A stretch of 64,000 bases of DNA from Halorubrum amylolyticum (lineage in GTDB: Archaea > Halobacteriota > Halobacteria > Halobacteriales > Haloferacaceae), in contig NZ_SDJP01000002.1 in NCBI RefSeq assembly GCF_004114995.1, positions 136,457 through 200,456 of the forward strand, written 5' to 3'. Shown here one piece after another: positions 23,922 to 35,081 of this stretch. Position 1 is the first letter of the stretch; each line of letters starts with the position of its first letter. The notes beneath the pieces are model-generated. The model ran no database searches. It was given only the letters and a program-made list of their open reading frames with translations, and had not been told where the DNA came from. The translations under genes and the position numbers were made by a program.

Positions 23922-24953
23922 TTACGACCGGATCGCCGCGCTGGCGAGCCCGACCGGGCCGTCGCCGGAGCCGGCGGCGAGGCTGATCCGCCATCCCTCC
24001 TCGGCGGAAGCGATCCGGACCGCGTCGTGTCGGCGACTCGGCTCCGTTCTGCGGTACAGTTCGAGGACGAGCGGCAGCGTCGGGAACCGGCCGTCTCGGG
24101 GCGTGAGCGCGCAGTCGGACACCAGCACGGTGGCGCGTTCGGCCGCGCTCCCGGACGCCGAGTCGGACTCGCGGACGTAGCCGTCGACGACGCCGGCCCC
24201 CGAGAGGCGGTCGAACGCGCCGGAGACCGGATCGCCCCCCGAGACGGGCGGGAGCCCCGCCGCCGCGGCCGACAGCACCGACGCCTGTTCGTCCGGCGTG
24301 AGCCGCCGGTGGAGGGCCTCGGCCATCGCTTCGAGGAGGCACAGACAGAGGTCGTCCGGGTCGCTCACCCGCTCCGCGAGTTCGAAGTACGCGTCCATCA
24401 CCGCCGACTCGGCGTCGTCGTGACCGCCCGCCGACAGCGCCTCGAACACCGCGGCCGCCGCCTCGTGGCAGAACTCGACGCGGTCGCGGCGCCGGTCGTC
24501 GCCCCCGCCCTCCACGACGGGGTCGGAGAGGCTCCACTCGGCCGCCTCCGTCGCGGAAAACCGACGCACGTCGTGGGGATCGTCCGGATCGCGGGGGTCG
24601 TCCGGATCGGGAGAGCCGTCCGAATTGCGGGAGCCGGCGTCGGTTTCGGCCGCCGGACCGCCTCGCCTTCCGGAGGTCAGCGCCGACGGCGTCGCTCCCG
24701 GTTCGTCGCCCACGAACTCCTGTCGGACGATCACGTCGTAGTACGGCAGCCGCGGGTCGTACCGGCGGAGCGCGTCGCGGTACTGCTCGGTGGCCCGCGC
24801 CGCGGCGCGCGCGACGGCGCGGCTCTCGAACCGGAGCCCGGCCGCCGGGACCGGTCGGTCGCCGTACCGCGCGCAGACGAGCGAGTACTCGCCCGTCTCG
24901 CTCGCGAGCGATTCGATGTGGTCGCTGATCTCGAGTAGCGTCGTTCCGATCAC
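23922..24953 (-). CDS. Uncharacterised haloarchaeal protein, 343 aa (DUF7551-like)
   Basis: A soluble protein from a GTG start (MIGTTLLEISDHIESLA). An N-terminal domain (1-85) includes PYYDVIVRQEFVG. A low-complexity Asp/Pro linker (about 105-130, DPDDPRDPDDPHD) and a helical middle domain (150-250, with EFCHEAAAAVFEAL and CLCLLEAMAEAL) follow, then a C-terminal beta-rich region. I do not recognise an activity; I believe it belongs to a haloarchaeal-only family. It lies 23 bp downstream of the flavoprotein that ends the first iron operon, so it may be transcribed with it. Confidence 0.65.
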   Translation of the reverse strand: MIGTTLLEISDHIESLASETGEYSLVCARYGDRPVPAAGLRFESRAVARAAARATEQYRDALRRYDPRLPYYDVIVRQEFVGDEPGATPSALTSGRRGGPAAETDAGSRNSDGSPDPDDPRDPDDPHDVRRFSATEAAEWSLSDPVVEGGGDDRRRDRVEFCHEAAAAVFEALSAGGHDDAESAVMDAYFELAERVSDPDDLCLCLLEAMAEALHRRLTPDEQASVLSAAAAGLPPVSGGDPVSGAFDRLSGAGVVDGYVRESDSASGSAAERATVLVSDCALTPRDGRFPTLPLVLELYRRTEPSRRHDAVRIASAEEGWRISLAAGSGDGPVGLASAAIRS

Positions 24954-24976: not shown

Positions 24977-25834
24977 TCACTCCTCTAGGCTCGGGTGCGT
25001 CTCCTGCGGGTCCGGGTGCGGCGCCGCGAACCGCTCCCGGATCGCCTCGCGGGACTCCTCCTCGCGCTCGCGGCGCTCGCCGTCGCCGATCTCCTCGCAG
25101 CCCGGCGGCACCTGCCGGCCGCGGTCGGTGAAGTACCCCTCGGGCGCGACCCAGTCGTGGTAGAACCCGCGGTCGTCCGCCTCCAGTATCGTCACGCCGA
25201 CCTCGGCCCCGTGGCCCGCGCACACCGCCGCCTGATGCGGCTTCTCCGCGAGCCGGCCGGCCGCGTACAGCCCGTCGACGCCGGTCCGCCCGCGCTCGTC
25301 GGTGTCGACGTACGACTTCCCCCGGTCGAGGATGCCGATCCCGTCGACGTCCGCGAGGTAGCCGACCTCGTTCTTCGTCGCCGCGACGACGTACCGAGTC
25401 CGGATCGCGTCGCCGCGGCTGTTCGCGTCGCCGTGGTCGTTCGCGTCGCCGCGGTCGACTTCGACGACGAACCGGATGTCGTCTCCCGGATCGGGGCCGT
25501 CCGCGTCACCGGAGCCGACGGCCGAGACGCGCGTCGCTCGGGCGTCGAGCCGGTCGGCCCCCGCGTCCCCGGCCTGTTCGCCGAGGAGATCGAGTAACTG
25601 CCGGGCGTTGACGCCCAGCGGGAAGCCGGGGAAGTTCTCCAAGTGCGCGTTCCGTCGGAGGAGCGACTCGCCCGGGTCGATGACGAGCGTGTCGAGCCCC
25701 TGCCGGGCCGTGAACACGGCCGCCGAGAGGCCGCCGACGACGACCACGTCACGGGGGCCGTTCGGGTCGCTGTCCGCGTGCGGGTCGCGGTCCGCACCCG
25801 CTTCGCCCCTCGCGGGCGCCTCGTCCCCGCTCAT
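24977..25834 (-). CDS. Thioredoxin-reductase-like flavoprotein with shortened FAD-binding loop
   Basis: 285 residues. The fold resembles thioredoxin-reductase-type FAD/NAD(P) oxidoreductases: AHLENFPGFPLGV (about 62-74) is the FAD-contact motif, and TGVDGLYAAGRLAEKPHQA (about 187-205) is the C-terminal ATG/FAD motif. The N-terminal Rossmann loop reads DVVVVGGLSAAVFTA (29-43). The usual GGGPAGLSAA lacks four residues (GPAG), as if 12 bp were deleted. No redox CxxC is present. It is the last member of an iron-regulated operon (start overlaps the preceding ORF by ATGA). Its homologue in the other iron operon keeps the full loop. It may reduce or release iron from siderophore, if FAD still binds. 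Confidence 0.8.
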   Translation of the reverse strand: MSGDEAPARGEAGADRDPHADSDPNGPRDVVVVGGLSAAVFTARQGLDTLVIDPGESLLRRNAHLENFPGFPLGVNARQLLDLLGEQAGDAGADRLDARATRVSAVGSGDADGPDPGDDIRFVVEVDRGDANDHGDANSRGDAIRTRYVVAATKNEVGYLADVDGIGILDRGKSYVDTDERGRTGVDGLYAAGRLAEKPHQAAVCAGHGAEVGVTILEADDRGFYHDWVAPEGYFTDRGRQVPPGCEEIGDGERREREEESREAIRERFAAPHPDPQETHPSLEE

Positions 25835-25983
25835 CGGTCGATCCCCCGTGCAAGTCGCGAGTCGTCGTTTCCGTTCGCCATACCCGTCGGCGCGCGCGAG
25901 CCGTCGTAGTCGCTTCGGTCCGAGACCGGTTCGGCTCCGGCCCGACCCGCGGCCTCGTCGGGACGGGGGCGCTGCGCGATCAT
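25831..25983 (-). CDS. Possible 50-aa protein between overlapping genes
   Basis: A 50-codon ORF that starts inside the stop of the 58-aa gene (ATGA) and stops inside the start of the flavoprotein gene (ATGA). It is acidic and Ser/Asp-rich with no motif (MIAQRPRPDEAAG start). The double overlap supports translation coupling, but the sequence looks like a linker rather than a folded domain. It could instead be non-coding spacer. Confidence 0.4.
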   Translation of the reverse strand: MIAQRPRPDEAAGRAGAEPVSDRSDYDGSRAPTGMANGNDDSRLARGIDR

Positions 25984-26156
25984 CGCCGCACGCGAACCGG
26001 TCGCTCCGCCGCGATGAACGGCTCGTCGCGGCCGGCCGCCGCGAACGCGAGGTCGCCGTCGTCGCCGCGCTCGACCCGCCACGCCGGCAGGGCCGGCACG
26101 TCGTACTCCGTCGGGTCGCCGAAGGCGGCCGCGACCGTCCACTCGCGGGCGCGCAT
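25980..26156 (-). CDS. Small haloarchaeal protein, 58 aa, in the iron operon
   Basis: Begins directly after the stop of the substrate-binding protein gene, with no gap. Sequence features: MRAREWTVAAAFGDPTEYD at the N-terminus and a PFIAAERPVRVRR end. I recall short haloarchaeal proteins ending in a similar AExPVxVRR but know no function. It has no Cys or signal peptide and so is cytoplasmic. Operon position ties it to siderophore uptake or to the adjoining flavoprotein (inference). Confidence 0.65.
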   Translation of the reverse strand: MRAREWTVAAAFGDPTEYDVPALPAWRVERGDDGDLAFAAAGRDEPFIAAERPVRVRR

Positions 26157-27533
26157 CTACGGCTCCCCGTTGATCGCGTCCGCGACGCGCTGGCGGTCGA
26201 ACAGCCGCTCGGGCTCGGGGATCTCCGGGTACGGCCCCTCGTCGTACGTCGGCCACTCGCCGAAGGCGTCGGGGTACAGCTGCTTGGCGGTCATCTCCAG
26301 CTGGAAGAGGTTCAAGATCGGCCCCTGATACCGGGCGCCCTGCGGGTGGACCCGCTCGTTCCGGACCGCCGTGATCTCCGAGGCGACCGGATCGCCCTCC
26401 AGCGTCGACCGGACCTCGGCCATGCTCGTGCCGGGCTGCATCCCGCCGAGGAAGAGGATCACGTCGGGGTCGGCCTCGAGCAGCCGCTCGAAGTCGACCG
26501 TCGCGCCGGACTCGACGGACCCGTCGAAGGCGGGGTTCGGCGCGAGCGGGCGCGCGTGCGAGGTGAGGAACCCCGGGTTGTCAAGCGCGTAGGCGTACAC
26601 CGTCTCCATGTCGCCGGAGGCGATCAACGCCGCGTTCGGCCGCTCCGACTCGGGCGGGAGCCGCTCGTCGATCGCCGCGAGCAGCTCCTCGCGGACCGCC
26701 GCGAGCGCCTCGTACCGCGCCCGCTCGCCGAACGCGTCGGCGACGCGCCCGAACTGCTCCCACAGCTCGTAGTACTCGTAGCCGTCGGCCCACTCCGCGG
26801 CGGGCTCCTGATGGCGATCGCTGAGAGAGTTGCCGAACCACGGCGAGACGTTCTCGGCGATCTCGTCGACGTCGGACCGGTCCCACCCCTCGACCTGCGT
26901 CACCCACGCCGGGTCCGCGAGGTGAATGTCGCTGTCGAGCTCGTACAGCGTCTCCTTGTCCGGCCCCCACGAGGAGTAGAGCCCCGACCAGTCGAGCGAC
27001 ACGCCCGGCAGGCGCGCGACGAACTGGTTCCAGAGCGCGTCGTAGTAGTCCGGCGCGTGCATCGCCGTGACCCCGTCGCCGCGGCCGAGCGCGAGCGCCA
27101 TGTCCGCGTGGTGCGTGAGCCGCGTGAATACCGTCTCCGGCGGCGCCTCGAAGGTCACCTCGCCGACCGGCGAGATCGACGCCGTGTAACTCCCCGTTCC
27201 GTCGCCGCTTCCGTCGCTCCCCTCTTCATCGGCGGCCTCCCGGCCGCTCTCCTCCGAGGCGGGGGACTCGGCCGAACCGCCGGACTCGGTGCCGTCCTCC
27301 GGTGATTCCGCGGAGGAAGCGCCGCCGAGACAGCCGGCGAGTGCCCCGCCGCCGATCGCGGCGCCCGCGCACGCCAGGTAGCCGCGACGGGTCGGTCCCG
27401 ACGTCGCGTCGGTCGCGTCGGCTGCGTCGATCGCATCGGTCGCGTCGGCCGTGTCGGCTGCGTCGATCGCATCGGTCGCGTCGGCCGTGTCGGCTGCGTC
27501 GATCGCATCGGTCGCGTCGGCCGCGTCGCTCAC
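26157..27533 (-). CDS. Iron-siderophore ABC transporter substrate-binding lipoprotein (with repeated N-terminus)
   Basis: 458 residues from a GTG start that overlaps the upstream stop by 4 bp. The first 43 residues are three 12-residue repeats of the type DAADTADATDAI. The Tat/lipobox signal follows: RRGYLACAGAA and LAGCLGG, so it is exported folded and lipid-anchored. An acidic Ser/Glu linker and a helical-backbone binding domain of the FecB/FhuD type come next. The C-terminus has EMTAKQLYPDAFGEW and PERLFDRQRVADAING, shared with the other two binding proteins here. It has no permease of its own in this operon and probably delivers to the permease at 29.8 kb (inference). Confidence 0.88.
   Translation of the reverse strand: MSDAADATDAIDAADTADATDAIDAADTADATDAIDAADATDATSGPTRRGYLACAGAAIGGGALAGCLGGASSAESPEDGTESGGSAESPASEESGREAADEEGSDGSGDGTGSYTASISPVGEVTFEAPPETVFTRLTHHADMALALGRGDGVTAMHAPDYYDALWNQFVARLPGVSLDWSGLYSSWGPDKETLYELDSDIHLADPAWVTQVEGWDRSDVDEIAENVSPWFGNSLSDRHQEPAAEWADGYEYYELWEQFGRVADAFGERARYEALAAVREELLAAIDERLPPESERPNAALIASGDMETVYAYALDNPGFLTSHARPLAPNPAFDGSVESGATVDFERLLEADPDVILFLGGMQPGTSMAEVRSTLEGDPVASEITAVRNERVHPQGARYQGPILNLFQLEMTAKQLYPDAFGEWPTYDEGPYPEIPEPERLFDRQRVADAINGEP
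27421..27528. repeat. Three tandem 36-bp repeats inside the binding-protein gene
   Basis: Three head-to-tail copies of a 36-bp unit (27421-27456, 27457-27492, 27493-27528). The first two are identical and the last differs by one base. Each codes in frame for 12 residues of Asp/Ala/Thr, ahead of the Tat signal. Copy-number change would alter only the length of the pre-signal segment. Confidence 0.95.
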
Positions 27534-28792
27534 GCTTCGAACTCCCCGTTGACGATGTCCGCGACGGCCTGTCGGTCGAACAGCCGTTCGTCGCTCGTTA
27601 CGGCGCCGAACTCCTCGGGATACAGCTGTTGTGCCGCCCGTTCGGTCAGGAAGAGGTTGTGGATCGGCCCTTGGTGGAGGTAGCCGCCGCGGTACACGCG
27701 GCCGTTCCGGACGGCCGTGAGTTCGCCGCCGACGGAGTGGTCCTCCATGTACGCGAGGACGGTGTCTCGGAACTCCGCCGGCGACTTGCGCTCGTGGCCT
27801 CGGACGAGGATCACGTCCGGGTCGATCGACAGCAGGTTCTCGTAGTCGAGCTCGCCGCGGTTGGTGCTGCTCAGGTTCTCGATGTCCGTTCCGGCGAGCG
27901 CGTCGACCGCGCCCAGATCGAGCCACTGCTTCTTGCTCGTCCCCTTGTCGACCAGCCGGTACGGCGAGAAGGTCTCCGGTTCGTCGGTCCCTTCGAAGGT
28001 GAGGAACACGTTCGGCCGCTCGTCCGCCGGGGGGAGGCGCGCCTGCACGTCCGCGACGAACTCGTCGTGAAGCTCGGCGAACGCCTCGTACCGCTCGCGC
28101 TCTTGGAAGACCTCGGCGACCTTCTCGAAGGCCTCGTACAGCGTGTAGTAACGGTAGTCGTGCCACCCGTCGGAGCGCCGGAAGATCAGGTTCCCGAGGA
28201 ACGGTGCCACGTTGTCCCGTATCTCTGCGACGTCGTCGTCCCCCCAGTCGAACCAGTTGACGAGCATCTGGGGATCGTACAGGTGGAGGTCGGCGTCGAG
28301 TTCGTAGAACTCCTCTTTCGTCCTGACCTCCGGGTGCGACTCGATCGCGTCGCGGTCGACGTCGACGCCCGGGAGCTCGTCGTACACCTCCCGGTAGTAC
28401 CGGCTGGCGTTGCCGACGCCGGCCAGCCCGCCGCCGCGTCCGAGCGCGACCGCCATGTCCGCGAAGCCGCCGTCGGACGCGACCCAGCGCTCCGGGACCG
28501 TCTCGAAGCGAACCTCCCCGGCGGGCGCCATCGTGACGGCGTACGGACTCCCGTCGGGCCCGTCGGATGCGTCCCCGCCGCTGGAGGCGTCCCCCCCGTC
28601 GCTCCCCTCGCCCGTCGTCGACGCGGCCTGCGAGCCGTTCCCGGCTCCGTCGGTTCCCCCGCCGTTTCCGGTGCAGCCGGCGAGCAGTCCCCCGCCGACG
28701 ACCGCGCCCGCGTGTGCCACGTACTCCCGTCGCGTCCGCCGAGGTGCGGTCTCGCCGTTCCACCGCCGGGATGCGGTCTCGTCCTTCGACAT
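27530..28792 (-). CDS. Iron-siderophore ABC transporter substrate-binding lipoprotein
   Basis: 420 residues from ATG giving MSKDETASRRW, 4 bp from operator A; an ATG 5 codons upstream would lie inside the operator and is rejected. The Tat signal is RRTRREYVAHAG and the lipobox is LLAGCTG (Cys about 43). An acidic Ser/Gly/Asp linker precedes a FecB/FhuD-type domain. The end DERLFDRQAVADIVNGEF matches the other two binding proteins. The stop overlaps the next gene start by GTGA. It is first in an operon with another binding protein, a 58-aa protein and a flavoprotein, controlled by two operators 36 bp apart. Confidence 0.9.
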   Translation of the reverse strand: MSKDETASRRWNGETAPRRTRREYVAHAGAVVGGGLLAGCTGNGGGTDGAGNGSQAASTTGEGSDGGDASSGGDASDGPDGSPYAVTMAPAGEVRFETVPERWVASDGGFADMAVALGRGGGLAGVGNASRYYREVYDELPGVDVDRDAIESHPEVRTKEEFYELDADLHLYDPQMLVNWFDWGDDDVAEIRDNVAPFLGNLIFRRSDGWHDYRYYTLYEAFEKVAEVFQERERYEAFAELHDEFVADVQARLPPADERPNVFLTFEGTDEPETFSPYRLVDKGTSKKQWLDLGAVDALAGTDIENLSSTNRGELDYENLLSIDPDVILVRGHERKSPAEFRDTVLAYMEDHSVGGELTAVRNGRVYRGGYLHQGPIHNLFLTERAAQQLYPEEFGAVTSDERLFDRQAVADIVNGEFEA

Positions 28793-28796
28793 ATAT

Positions 28797-28812
28797 TTTA
28801 GGCTCACCTAAA
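28797..28812. promoter_or_regulatory. DtxR/IdeR-type operator A
   Basis: TTTAGGCTCACCTAAA, a 6-bp inverted repeat around 4 bp. It lies 4 bp upstream of the ATG of the binding-protein gene, where RNA polymerase starts on a leaderless transcript. A bound repressor would block it. Confidence 0.85.
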
Positions 28813-28832
28813 AGAACATAACCGTTCCGATC

Positions 28833-28848
28833 TTTAGGCCAACCTAAA
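28833..28848. promoter_or_regulatory. DtxR/IdeR-type operator B
   Basis: TTTAGGCCAACCTAAA, spaced exactly 36 bp from operator A. The interval holds the putative core promoter (TTATG on the minus strand), so the pair brackets it. Confidence 0.85.
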
Positions 28849-28894: not shown

Positions 28895-29806
28895 CTACTC
28901 GGCGCCCTCGTGTCGCGCGCGGAGGGGGGTGACGCGCGGTCCGTTCTCGGTCTGCACCACGTCGGCGTCGACGCGGAACACGTCCGCGAGCAGGTCCTCG
29001 GTGACGACCTCCTCGGGCGCGCCGCGGGCGCGGATCTCCCCGTCCTTGAGCGCGACCATCCGATCGGCGAGCCGGGCGGCCTGCTCGATGTCGTGGAGCA
29101 CGACGACGACGGTCACGTCGCTCTCGTCGCGCAGGGTCTCGATGATCTCCATCACCTCCATCTGGTGGTGCATGTCGAGGAACGTCGTCGGCTCGTCCAA
29201 CAGGAGCACGTCGGTGTCCTGCGCTAACACCAGTGCGATCCACGCCAGCTGTTTCTGCCCGCCGCTGAGGCTCCCGACCTCGCGGTCGCGCAGGTGGCCG
29301 CAGCCGGCCAGCTCGAGCGCGTCCTCGACCGCGATAGCGTCCTCGTCGGTCGTCCGCTCGAAGAACCCGCGGTGGGGGTACCGACCGTGGTACACCAGAT
29401 CCTCGACCGTGATGCTGTTCGGCGAGGTGCTCTCCTGCGAGAGCAGCCCGATCTTCCGGGCGAGCGCCTTCGTGTCCATCGCGTGCACGTCGCCGCCGTC
29501 GACCAGCACGGAGCCGTCCTCCGGCGCGAGCTGCGTCGCCAACCCCTTCAGCAGGGTGCTCTTCCCCGAGCCGTTCGGGCCGACGAGGGCCGTGACCGCG
29601 CCGGGCTCGGCCGCGATCGACTCGCCGTCGATGACGGGCTCCGGGGCGTCCGGATACCCCAGTACGAGCTCCTCGCCGTCGAGGTTGCTCGCGTCCGTCG
29701 CGGCCGACTCGTCCGGAGTTTCCACCGCCGAGGCGTCCGCGCCGTTCGATCCGTCCGGTCCGTCCGTCGCGTCGATCTGTGTCGTGTCCGCGTTTTCCGT
29801 TGACAT
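28895..29806 (-). CDS. Iron-siderophore ABC transporter ATP-binding protein (FecE/FhuC type)
   Basis: 303 residues. After an acidic 45-residue leader come Walker A GPNGSGKSTL (about 75-84), the Q-loop IGLLSQES, the signature LSGGQKQLAWIALVLAQD, Walker B VLLLDEPTTFLD and the H-loop VLHDIEQAARLA. LARKIGLL and HGRYPHRGFF are characteristic of the FecE/FhuC group for iron-siderophore, heme or B12 import. It acts at the cytoplasmic face and energises the permease encoded just upstream, whose stop is adjacent to its start. It is the last gene of the second iron operon and the only such ATPase in the window. Confidence 0.93.
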   Translation of the reverse strand: MSTENADTTQIDATDGPDGSNGADASAVETPDESAATDASNLDGEELVLGYPDAPEPVIDGESIAAEPGAVTALVGPNGSGKSTLLKGLATQLAPEDGSVLVDGGDVHAMDTKALARKIGLLSQESTSPNSITVEDLVYHGRYPHRGFFERTTDEDAIAVEDALELAGCGHLRDREVGSLSGGQKQLAWIALVLAQDTDVLLLDEPTTFLDMHHQMEVMEIIETLRDESDVTVVVVLHDIEQAARLADRMVALKDGEIRARGAPEEVVTEDLLADVFRVDADVVQTENGPRVTPLRARHEGAE

Positions 29807-30979
29807 TCAGAGTTCACCCATGTTCTGCTGCCGCCGCATCAGGTACAGGAAGTACGGGCCGCCGATCAGCCCGGTGACGATACCGACCGGGATCTGCGCG
29901 TCGGCGCCCGTGATCACGCCCATCCCGAGGCGCGCGCCCACGTCGGCCGCGACCATCAGCGCCGGCCCGACGAACAGGCAGCCGACGATCACCCGCTTGT
30001 AGTCGCTGCCGACGAGGTTCCGCACCATGTGGGGGACGATGAGTCCCACGAAGCTGACGATGCCCGCGACCGCAATGCTGGCGGCGGCCGCCAGCACGGC
30101 GACGCCGGAGAGCGCGAACCGAACCCTCTCGATCGACATCCCCAGCGACTTCGCCGTCTGCTCGCCGAGGAGGAGGAGATTCAGCTGGCGCGACCCCGCG
30201 AGCGACAGCACCACTGCCACGACCGTCCACGGCAGCGCCATCCGCACCTGCTCCCAGTCGGTGCTGGTCAGCGACCCCGTCGTCCACTGGATCGCCGACT
30301 GGACGACGCCGATGTCGTCCGCGAAGAAGAACAGCCCCGTCTGGAGGCTGTTGAAGACGGTCCCGACGATCACGCCCGCGAGCACGAGTCGGACCGGGCT
30401 CGTCCCGTTCTTCCACGCGATCGCGTAGACGATCAGGAACGCGACCGCGCCGCCGAGCGCCGCGATCAGCGGGAGGAACGCCGAGAGTCCCCCGAACACC
30501 ACGAGCGTCAGCAGGATCATCAGCCCCGCGCCGGAGGAGACGCCGAGGATGAACGGGCTCGCCAGCTCGTTTCTGGTGACCGCCTGGAAGATGGCCCCCG
30601 AGATGCCGAGGTTCATCCCGACGATGGCGGCGACGAACACCCGCGGGAGCCGGATGTTCCAGACGATGAGCGTCCCGTGCGCCAGCTCGGGCAGCTCCCC
30701 CTGAAAGCCCGTGATCGAGCGCATCAGTCCCTCGCCGACGAGGAAGTTCAGCAGCCAGCGCGGGTCGAGGAGGACCGCGGGGTCGAGGACGGCGCGCCAC
30801 GCCTCCCCGACCGTCATCGAGTACGCGCCGAAGCTCACCTGCACGAGCCCGCCGGCGACGACGACCGCGACGCTCGCGAACGCGACCGTGATCAGCTTGG
30901 GATCGAACAGCCAGCCGATCCGCCCCTCCGTCGGCCGGCGCGCCGCGTCTCCCCCGGCGACCGACCCCCCGCCGCTCAT
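29807..30979 (-). CDS. Iron-siderophore ABC transporter permease (FecCD family)
   Basis: 390 residues from ATG overlapping the upstream flavoprotein stop (ATGA). About nine or ten transmembrane helices are visible. FecCD/BtuC markers are NIRLPRVFVAAIVGMNLGISGAIFQ (contacts and helices around 110-135), ASPFILGVSSGAGL and SFVGLIVPHMVRNLVGSDYKR, the last containing the loop that meets the ATPase. It forms the channel (normally a homodimer) for ferric-siderophore uptake. It shares an operon with one binding protein and probably serves the other two binding proteins as well (inference). Confidence 0.93.
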   Translation of the reverse strand: MSGGGSVAGGDAARRPTEGRIGWLFDPKLITVAFASVAVVVAGGLVQVSFGAYSMTVGEAWRAVLDPAVLLDPRWLLNFLVGEGLMRSITGFQGELPELAHGTLIVWNIRLPRVFVAAIVGMNLGISGAIFQAVTRNELASPFILGVSSGAGLMILLTLVVFGGLSAFLPLIAALGGAVAFLIVYAIAWKNGTSPVRLVLAGVIVGTVFNSLQTGLFFFADDIGVVQSAIQWTTGSLTSTDWEQVRMALPWTVVAVVLSLAGSRQLNLLLLGEQTAKSLGMSIERVRFALSGVAVLAAAASIAVAGIVSFVGLIVPHMVRNLVGSDYKRVIVGCLFVGPALMVAADVGARLGMGVITGADAQIPVGIVTGLIGGPYFLYLMRRQQNMGEL

Positions 30980-31989
30980 CGTGCCTCCTCCGCGTACGCG
31001 GCGACGTCCTCGTCGTCCATCGCGTCGAGCAGCGCCTCGGCGCCGTGAGCGTCGACAAGGGCGTCGGGGTCGAGGTGGTCGGCGAGCGCGCGCCGCCCCT
31101 CGGACGCCCGCGCCTCGGCCTCGTCGGCGTCGACGTACGCCGACAGCGCGGCGTCGATCGCCGCCTCGCGGACCCGGGCGAACCGCTCCGCGTCCGGATC
31201 GACGGGGGCGTCGGCGTGGCGCTCGTCGAACCACTCGACCCACCGATCGCGGTCCGCCCACTCCTCCTCGCGCTCGGCCTCGCGGCGCACCCAGTCGACG
31301 CCCTCGGCCGCCGCGGGCCACCAGCCGTCCGCGATCCGGGCGTCCGTCACGACTCGCCGGGCCACGCGGGCGCCGCGCCCGGCCGCCGTGATCGCCTGCT
31401 GGGCGGCCTCGGAGGGCGAGGCGACGTAGAGCCCGTCGACCGGCGTCGTCCCGTCGGGGTCGGCGTACTCCCGGTCGAAATGCTCGTGCGTCTCGCCGCC
31501 GTGGTCGTGGGCCTCGAACATCGCCGCGTCGTCGTCGAGCCCGCGGAGGTACTCGCCGTCGTACCGGGTCGCCGCGACCACGCGGCGGGCGGTGACCGGC
31601 TCGCCCTCCTGCGGGGTGACGCGGAAGCGCGTCTCCGCCGCGTCGTCACCGCGCTGCTCGCCGGACTCGATCGGGTCGACCGACTCGATCAGGTCGTCGA
31701 CGAGTTCGCCGCCCGCGCGCTCGACGTGATCGTGGATGAGGCCGTAGACGGTCTCGACGTCGAGCCCGGCCGGAAATCCGAGGTAGTTGCCGAGGTGCGC
31801 GCATCGCGCGATCGACGACCGACCCCGGTCGAACACGGCCACCTCGACCCCCTCGCGGGCGAGGAAGACGGCGGCCGAGCAGCCGGCGGGGCCGCCGCCG
31901 ACCACGACCGCGTCGTAGTCGACGTCGGCGGCCTCGTCGCGGTCGATCTCGTTGCGGTCGGTGTCGTCCCGGTCTCTCCCGTCGCTCAT
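30976..31989 (-). CDS. NAD(P)/FAD-dependent oxidoreductase, thioredoxin-reductase-like
   Basis: 337 residues. The FAD loop is complete, AVVVGGGPAGCSAAVFLA (about 27-44). LGNYLGFPAGLD (about 68-79) is the NYxGFP-type FAD contact, and TPVDGLYVASPSEAAQQA is the late flavin motif. There is no CxxC, so it is not a classic thioredoxin reductase. The C-terminal 110 residues, acidic and helical, extend beyond the usual family length. It overlaps both neighbours (ATGA) in the operon of binding protein, permease and ATPase. A role in reducing imported ferric siderophore is inferred from context. It is a paralogue of the gene at 24977. Confidence 0.85.
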   Translation of the reverse strand: MSDGRDRDDTDRNEIDRDEAADVDYDAVVVGGGPAGCSAAVFLAREGVEVAVFDRGRSSIARCAHLGNYLGFPAGLDVETVYGLIHDHVERAGGELVDDLIESVDPIESGEQRGDDAAETRFRVTPQEGEPVTARRVVAATRYDGEYLRGLDDDAAMFEAHDHGGETHEHFDREYADPDGTTPVDGLYVASPSEAAQQAITAAGRGARVARRVVTDARIADGWWPAAAEGVDWVRREAEREEEWADRDRWVEWFDERHADAPVDPDAERFARVREAAIDAALSAYVDADEAEARASEGRRALADHLDPDALVDAHGAEALLDAMDDEDVAAYAEEAR

Positions 31990-33269
31990 TCCGAATCACC
32001 GGCGACGATCGCCGCGACCCGGTCGCGATCGAAGAGCCGCTCGGACTCCGGGATCTCGGGGTAGCCGTCGCCGAGTTCGTAGGCCGGCCACTCGCCGAAC
32101 CGCTCGGGGAACAGCTGTTTGGCGGTCATTTCGATCTGGAAGAGGTTCATGATCGGCCCCTGTACCGGGTCCCCCGAGGGGTAGAACCGGTCGTTCTCGA
32201 TCGCGGAGAGCTCGCCGGCGACGGGGTGATCGGCGAGCTCCTCGCGGATGCCGGCCACGTCGTAGTAGGACTCGATCCCGTACTGGTGGTGGATGACGTC
32301 GGGGTCGATCTCCAGCAGCTGTTCGTGATCGTAGGCGGTCTCGTAGCTCACGCCGTCGGCGCCGAACGCGTCGGGCACCCCGAAGGGGCGCACGTGGGCG
32401 TTTGCGAACCCCGGGTCGTCGATCCGCGAGGGGTAGTGGGTCCCGTCCATGTAGAGGAGCGTGCCGACCGTCGGGCGCTCCTCCGCCGGCGGGAGGTCCG
32501 CCTGCACCGTCTCGATCAGGTCGTCGTGGACCGTCGAGAGCGCCTCGAAGCGCTCTTCTTCCCGGAACACGCCGGCGACGCGCTCGGTGATCTCCCAGAG
32601 GGTGTGGTACTCGTAGCCGTCGCGACACGACTCCGGCGGCTCGGAGTTCCGGCGGCTGAGCACGTTGCCGAACCACGGACCGACGTTGTCGCGGATCTCC
32701 GCCACGTCGCCCTCGTCCCACCCCTCGAAGGAGACGAACAGACAGGGGTCGGCGAGGTGGAGGTCGGAGTCGAGCTCGTAGAGCAGCTCCCGGTCGACCG
32801 TGATCCCGTCGCCGGAGCCCGTGTTGAGCTGCCGGACTCCCTCTCTGTCGAAGGCGACGCCGTCGAGTTCGGCGTAGTAAGCGTCGAGCGTGTTCCCGCC
32901 GGCGTCCGCGTCGAAGCCGAGCGAGTTCACCGCGTCGCCGTGGCCGAACGCGACCGCCATGTCCGCGTACAGCAGGCTGTAGACCATCACGTCCTCGGGG
33001 ACCGAGTCGAAGGTCACCTCGCCGACCGGCGCCATCTCGACGGAGTAGGAGTCCGTGGACCCGTCGCCTCCGTCCGACCCCTCATCGGAGCCGTCCGACC
33101 CGCCGGCGTCACCACCGTCAGATCCGTCGGCGCCGTCGGAGCCAGCAGAGCCGGATTCGCCCGAACCGCCTCCGAGACAGCCCGCGAGCAGTCCCGCCCC
33201 CGCGACCGCGCCGCCGTACCTGATCACGTTCCGGCGCGTCGGAGGGGTTCGGTCCGCGTCCTTTTCCAT
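31986..33269 (-). CDS. Iron-siderophore ABC transporter substrate-binding lipoprotein (first gene of second operon)
   Basis: 427 residues. The Tat signal is RRNVIRYGG and the lipobox is LLAGCLGG. A long Ser/Gly/Asp linker (about 35-70) precedes the binding domain. The end PESERLFDRDRVAAIVAGD and EMTAKQLFPERFGEW match the other two binding proteins. The stop overlaps the flavoprotein start by ATGA. The start is the ATG 5 bp from operator C. It probably captures ferric siderophore outside the membrane and delivers it to the permease encoded in the same operon. Confidence 0.92.
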   Translation of the reverse strand: MEKDADRTPPTRRNVIRYGGAVAGAGLLAGCLGGGSGESGSAGSDGADGSDGGDAGGSDGSDEGSDGGDGSTDSYSVEMAPVGEVTFDSVPEDVMVYSLLYADMAVAFGHGDAVNSLGFDADAGGNTLDAYYAELDGVAFDREGVRQLNTGSGDGITVDRELLYELDSDLHLADPCLFVSFEGWDEGDVAEIRDNVGPWFGNVLSRRNSEPPESCRDGYEYHTLWEITERVAGVFREEERFEALSTVHDDLIETVQADLPPAEERPTVGTLLYMDGTHYPSRIDDPGFANAHVRPFGVPDAFGADGVSYETAYDHEQLLEIDPDVIHHQYGIESYYDVAGIREELADHPVAGELSAIENDRFYPSGDPVQGPIMNLFQIEMTAKQLFPERFGEWPAYELGDGYPEIPESERLFDRDRVAAIVAGDSE

Positions 33270-33274
33270 ATTGA

Positions 33275-33288
33275 TTAGGCCTCCCTAA
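33275..33288. promoter_or_regulatory. DtxR/IdeR-type operator C
   Basis: TTAGGCCTCCCTAA lies 5 bp upstream of the ATG of the binding protein gene at 33269. A weak TATA-like TTTAATTC lies just behind it on the minus strand. Confidence 0.8.
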
Positions 33289-33310
33289 AGAATTAAATCG
33301 CTTTCGAATC

Positions 33311-33324
33311 TTAGGTGGGCCTAA
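33311..33324. promoter_or_regulatory. DtxR/IdeR-type operator D
   Basis: TTAGGTGGGCCTAA begins exactly 36 bp from the start of operator C, the same spacing as operators A and B. Confidence 0.8.
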
Positions 33325-34577: not shown

Positions 34578-34593
34578 TTTAGGTGGACCTAAA
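34578..34593. promoter_or_regulatory. DtxR/IdeR-type operator E
   Basis: TTTAGGTGGACCTAAA, perfect 6-bp arms, 8 bp upstream of the 55-aa gene's ATG. Confidence 0.82.
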
Positions 34594-35065: not shown

Positions 35066-35081
35066 TTTAGGCCACCCTAAA
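35066..35081. promoter_or_regulatory. DtxR/IdeR-type operator F
   Basis: TTTAGGCCACCCTAAA, extendable to 7-bp arms, 3 bp upstream of the repressor's ATG. A TATA-like sequence (TTATATTTT on the minus strand) lies just upstream. It is in position to occlude a leaderless start. Confidence 0.85.

Follow-up and report, generated by a model that had tools for sequence, protein, structure and literature searches.

Gene organization at the locus

The minus strand of the window (the whole 64,000-nucleotide stretch analyzed here) carries a flavoprotein gene at 24977 to 25834, an ORF that encodes 285 amino acids and has orthologues in most members of the genus. Directly upstream lies a conserved 58-amino-acid ORF (25980 to 26156), which is found in the same place in other Halorubrum genomes with 72 to 94% identity. 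There follow, all on the same strand, the genes for PBP3, an ABC transporter substrate-binding protein with a lipoprotein-type N terminus that is syntenic in relatives (26157 to 27508, start approximate); PBP2, also a substrate-binding protein (27530 to 28807; PF01497, E=7.6e-13); an ABC transporter ATPase (28895 to 29806; PF00005, E=9.9e-31); an ABC transporter permease (29807 to 30983, start approximate), with syntenic genes 85 to 96% identical in other Halorubrum; a paralogous flavoprotein (30976 to 31989; PF07992, E=2.1e-8) that matches PDB 2CVJ in a phmmer search and is 35% identical to the flavoprotein at 24977 to 25834; and PBP1, a substrate-binding-type lipoprotein with no Pfam match but with syntenic counterparts in relatives (31986 to 33269). 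This arrangement is largely kept across Halorubrum.

Six exact TTAGGNNNNCCTAA boxes, of the DtxR type, occur in the window, two each at 28798 to 28847 and 33275 to 33324 and one each at 34579 to 34592 and 35067 to 35080. Both pairs (starting at 28798 and 28834, and at 33275 and 33311) have a start-to-start spacing of 36 bp and stand before iron-transport genes, the pair at 28798 to 28847 preceding the transcription unit to which the flavoprotein gene belongs. When up to two mismatches were allowed, the window contained 9 matches to TTAGGNNNNCCTAA, against 3.15 expected by chance. A ferR signal lies before all fhu genes of Haloferax volcanii (PMC11349517), and the boxes described here are in keeping with it. 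With substrate-binding and ATPase genes (PF01497 and PF00005) and a permease gene (by ORF and synteny) under an iron-regulator box, the cluster is predicted to encode an iron-siderophore (fhu-type) ABC transporter controlled through DtxR boxes. The original prediction had placed the flavoprotein gene in an iron-regulated operon, and the exact boxes paired before that operon bear this out. Our guess, from context, is that either flavoprotein may take part in ferric-siderophore reduction or a linked thiol step; such a flavoprotein is not mentioned in the Haloferax iron literature that we examined, including PMC11349517. The downstream gene (23922 to 24953, minus strand), which encodes DUF7552 and DUF7551 domains, also comes after the flavoprotein gene at many loci in Halorubrum and in some other haloarchaea.

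Protein family and predicted fold

A profile built from the orthologues found as its first PDB match 2CVJ (TTHA0370, a thioredoxin reductase-related protein of 180 amino acids; E=1.2e-26 over 180 positions), full thioredoxin reductases ranking after it and aligning over the half that forms their FAD domain. Foldseek likewise matched the model of the window protein to 2cvj (E=8.9e-13), and VIA-align, run with the model of an intact orthologue, had 2CVJ as its best structural match (Z 25.7, rmsd 1.7, 176 aligned positions). The Foldseek match and the 180-position profile alignment both describe an FAD-domain fold without the inserted NADPH domain, which is the architecture that the window protein shares with TTHA0370 of Thermus thermophilus (PDB 2CVJ, 2YWL); it differs from TTHA0370 in having an extra C-terminal region and in lacking four loop residues, the loop of TTHA0370 itself being full (VVGGGPSGLSAA). 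Thioredoxin reductase (TIGR01292; e.g., PDB 2Q7V) has the same FAD-domain fold (Z 25.5 for the intact orthologue model), and TIGR01292 matches 86 of 86 relatives at E<=0.001, but an intact orthologue scores 73 bits against a family cut-off of 343.45, and the NADPH domain is absent from the 285-amino-acid window protein and the thioredoxin reductase-type CxxC is therefore absent with it. We accordingly class the protein, by profile and predicted fold, as a thioredoxin reductase-related, FAD-domain-only flavoprotein. Haloarchaeal orthologues, which are up to 86% identical and occupy the same neighborhood in Halorubrum, differ from it in that all have the full GxGxxG loop; those in plasmid records are annotated as FAD-dependent oxidoreductase or FAD-binding protein. 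The ancestral protein very probably bound FAD through this standard loop.

The shortened FAD-binding loop

Residues 29 to 41 of the window protein read DVVVVGGLSAAVF where aligned orthologues have DVVVVGGGVAGLSAAVF, a difference of four residues, or 12 bp, in frame. The loop stretch itself, PRDVVVVGGLSAAVFTARQG, aligns as DVVVVGG-LSAAVF; the corresponding region of relatives, wherever present in genus orthologues and in a GTDB species set, is VVGGGVAGLSAAVF or a near variant (contig L024/L046 ends inside the loop). The six-residue GxGxxG loop was kept in all 86 aligned haloarchaeal relatives, as GGGVAG in almost all of them, and its glycines G6, G8, and G11 were invariant across the 86 rows. 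In the comparison with orthologues that the original prediction had named as a check, the full loop is the rule. The orthologue family has GxGxxG after strand 1, as a TTHA0370-like FAD-only flavoprotein should, and the window protein (VVGGLSAAVF) does not. The deletion junction (GGC GGC / CTC, minus strand, 25729 to 25734) separates window positions 25730 and 25729; its placement is ambiguous by 4 bp, towards 25734. Taking 12 bp out of the sister-species sequence (L005), at any of five equivalent offsets, reproduced the window sequence exactly; the breakpoints therefore lie within a shared CGGC.

These comparisons agree with the original prediction that exactly four residues, or 12 bp, are missing and that the frame is kept. 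That prediction had also given GGGPAG as the loop of both the paralogue at 30976 and the family, which holds for the paralogue but not for the orthologues, almost all of which have GGGVAG; because proline is the exception among orthologues, the missing residues are better written GVAG (or an equivalent register) than GPAG.

AlphaFold2 placed a strand at residues 2 to 5 and a helix at 9 to 20 in an intact orthologue and a strand at 28 to 33 and a helix at 37 to 44, one turn shorter, in the window protein; it folded the shortened protein with high confidence, although model confidence says nothing about FAD binding. The window protein scored 22.7 bits with Pfam Pyr_redox_2, below the 26.1 cut-off and with its best stretch in the C-terminal part only, and an intact orthologue scored 42.2 bits. 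In this fold, the FAD pyrophosphate is held by the loop glycines and the first helix turn, and a protein without them is expected to lose FAD binding or to retain it in severely weakened form.

Distribution among relatives

Of 170 family genomes, only 1, that of the window itself, was matched by a degenerate DNA pattern representing the shortened loop. The intact-loop pattern, our positive control, found 32 of the 52 genomes of the genus but not the window's own, which has a single copy of the flavoprotein gene. No second copy was found in viral contigs, and a plasmid search for a further copy or strain returned other genera only, among the matches listed. Since the loop glycines are invariant in 86 relatives, the shortened pattern matched 1 of 170 genomes, and the control behaved as it did, we regard the shortening, as a feature of the sequence, as not due to chance. 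A literature search on GXGXXG deletions yielded nothing that was put to use here.

The flavoprotein itself was matched in 49 of the 52 Halorubrum genomes at E<=1e-10, including G028 and G032, in which the match is a weaker, paralogue-like one only, and G042, in which it is a fragment. The copy in G042 is truncated at its N terminus, and a second copy in G045 is truncated and contains an in-frame TAG; among the 52 genomes, no orthologue match was found in G028, G029, G032, G043, or G051, some of which are incomplete. Since other members of the genus have lost the gene or carry decaying copies, its loss appears tolerable.

Constraint on the remainder of the gene

Across 130 columns that are at least 90% identical among 64 relatives (in a 65-sequence alignment), the window protein has, apart from the four missing residues, a single difference, a V-to-I change, in line with the original prediction that the other motifs are intact. 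Pairwise dN/dS values against the 14 nearest relatives were 0.19 to 0.35, and the median among those relatives was 0.224. At codons conserved in 13 close relatives, we counted seven synonymous private changes and one amino-acid change, approximate figures obtained by the Nei-Gojobori method and direct counting without ancestral reconstruction. A wholly neutral branch would be expected to give 32.9 amino-acid changes, and the 95% upper bound of the observed number is 4.74, so unconstrained evolution would account for at most about 14% of the gene's own branch. With the remainder of the gene under ordinary constraint, either the lesion is very recent, or it is not real, or the protein still works; the same residual constraint would be expected equally if the shortened protein were still functional.

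Origin and consequence of the deletion

The reading that we favor, and consider probable, is that the deletion is real, very recent, and private to the strain and that it disables FAD binding. An ancestral protein within the Halorubrum iron-siderophore cluster would have bound FAD through its GxGxxG loop until, at the species level or below it, that loop and the initial turn of the helix after it were lost through a microdeletion of 12 bp between short repeats of CGGC. The product would be expected to fold and yet to bind FAD poorly or not at all, making this a loss-of-function or strongly weakened allele. Dispensability of the gene, together with the paralogue elsewhere in the cluster, may make such an allele tolerable. 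Of the explanations offered with the original prediction, recent loss is the best fit, since constraint elsewhere in the gene held until very recently.

Folding of the site into a stem-loop was considered as a cause of the deletion and rejected, because it was no better than that of shuffled sequence (z = 0.5); no special mutation mechanism is therefore supported, and the direct-repeat ambiguity alone remains.

The deletion could instead be an artefact, the strain having a full loop and 12 bp having been lost from a GC-rich, short-repeat stretch during library preparation or consensus calling. We think this unlikely, although several features would suit it: the deletion occurs in no relative and the gene shows no decay, as would be the case if the true gene were intact; the site is GC rich, and its breakpoints fall in a direct repeat of 4 bp; and the assembly consists of 75 contigs with an estimated contamination of 5.14%. 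Against it, the loss is exactly in frame, and ordinary assemblers do not collapse repeats as short as 4 bp. Local sequence quality also speaks against it. We compared 22 window genes with three to five relatives each, over 5,658 columns invariant in the relatives (tblastn matches were extended, and the small ORF was taken as 25976 to 26158, its ends not being exact), and found four contiguous residues missing in the flavoprotein gene, a single residue missing in each of three other genes, and no other multi-residue gap at these columns. Judged in this way, the window gives no sign of being a generally error-prone stretch. An alignment of the whole window at the nucleotide level with five relatives was discarded in favor of the protein-level comparison, because it misplaced the gap, the adjoining N-terminal linker being poorly conserved.

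A third explanation is that the shortened protein still works, through a remodeled loop, through retention of FAD by the remainder of the pocket, or in an FAD-free role with another ligand or as a scaffold. It would account for the retention of every other conserved position bar the one V-to-I change, for the confident AlphaFold2 fold with its shortened helix, and for the intact frame, upstream genes, and iron boxes. However, the short loop was seen in no relative among the 170 family genomes, 86 relatives keep the lost glycines without exception, and the single V-to-I change gives no sign of compensation. We therefore hold retained function to be possible but less likely than a recent disabling deletion, and doubtful in its own right. 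As no relative shares the short loop, the suggestions in the original prediction of another cofactor or a scaffold have no positive support. Most improbable of all would be a thioredoxin reductase-like protein that still functions after a recent loss of the canonical FAD pyrophosphate loop, whether it does so flavin free or as a partner that regulates or scaffolds the paralogue, whose loop is full and whose gene lies in the same iron operon.

A recent disabling deletion would make the feature an ordinary one, and it does not look like a new kind of enzyme. A copy without its motif in one genome, in a gene that is otherwise pristine, should be read with caution as very recent loss or error and not as new biochemistry. 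A real allele would be a small natural experiment on the dispensability of a widely conserved flavoprotein of haloarchaeal iron clusters.

The decaying copies of the gene in two other members of the genus lie at 1494 to 1862 of L114 and 1519 to 1971 of L115; one consists of the C-terminal half only, and the other is truncated and has an in-frame TAG.
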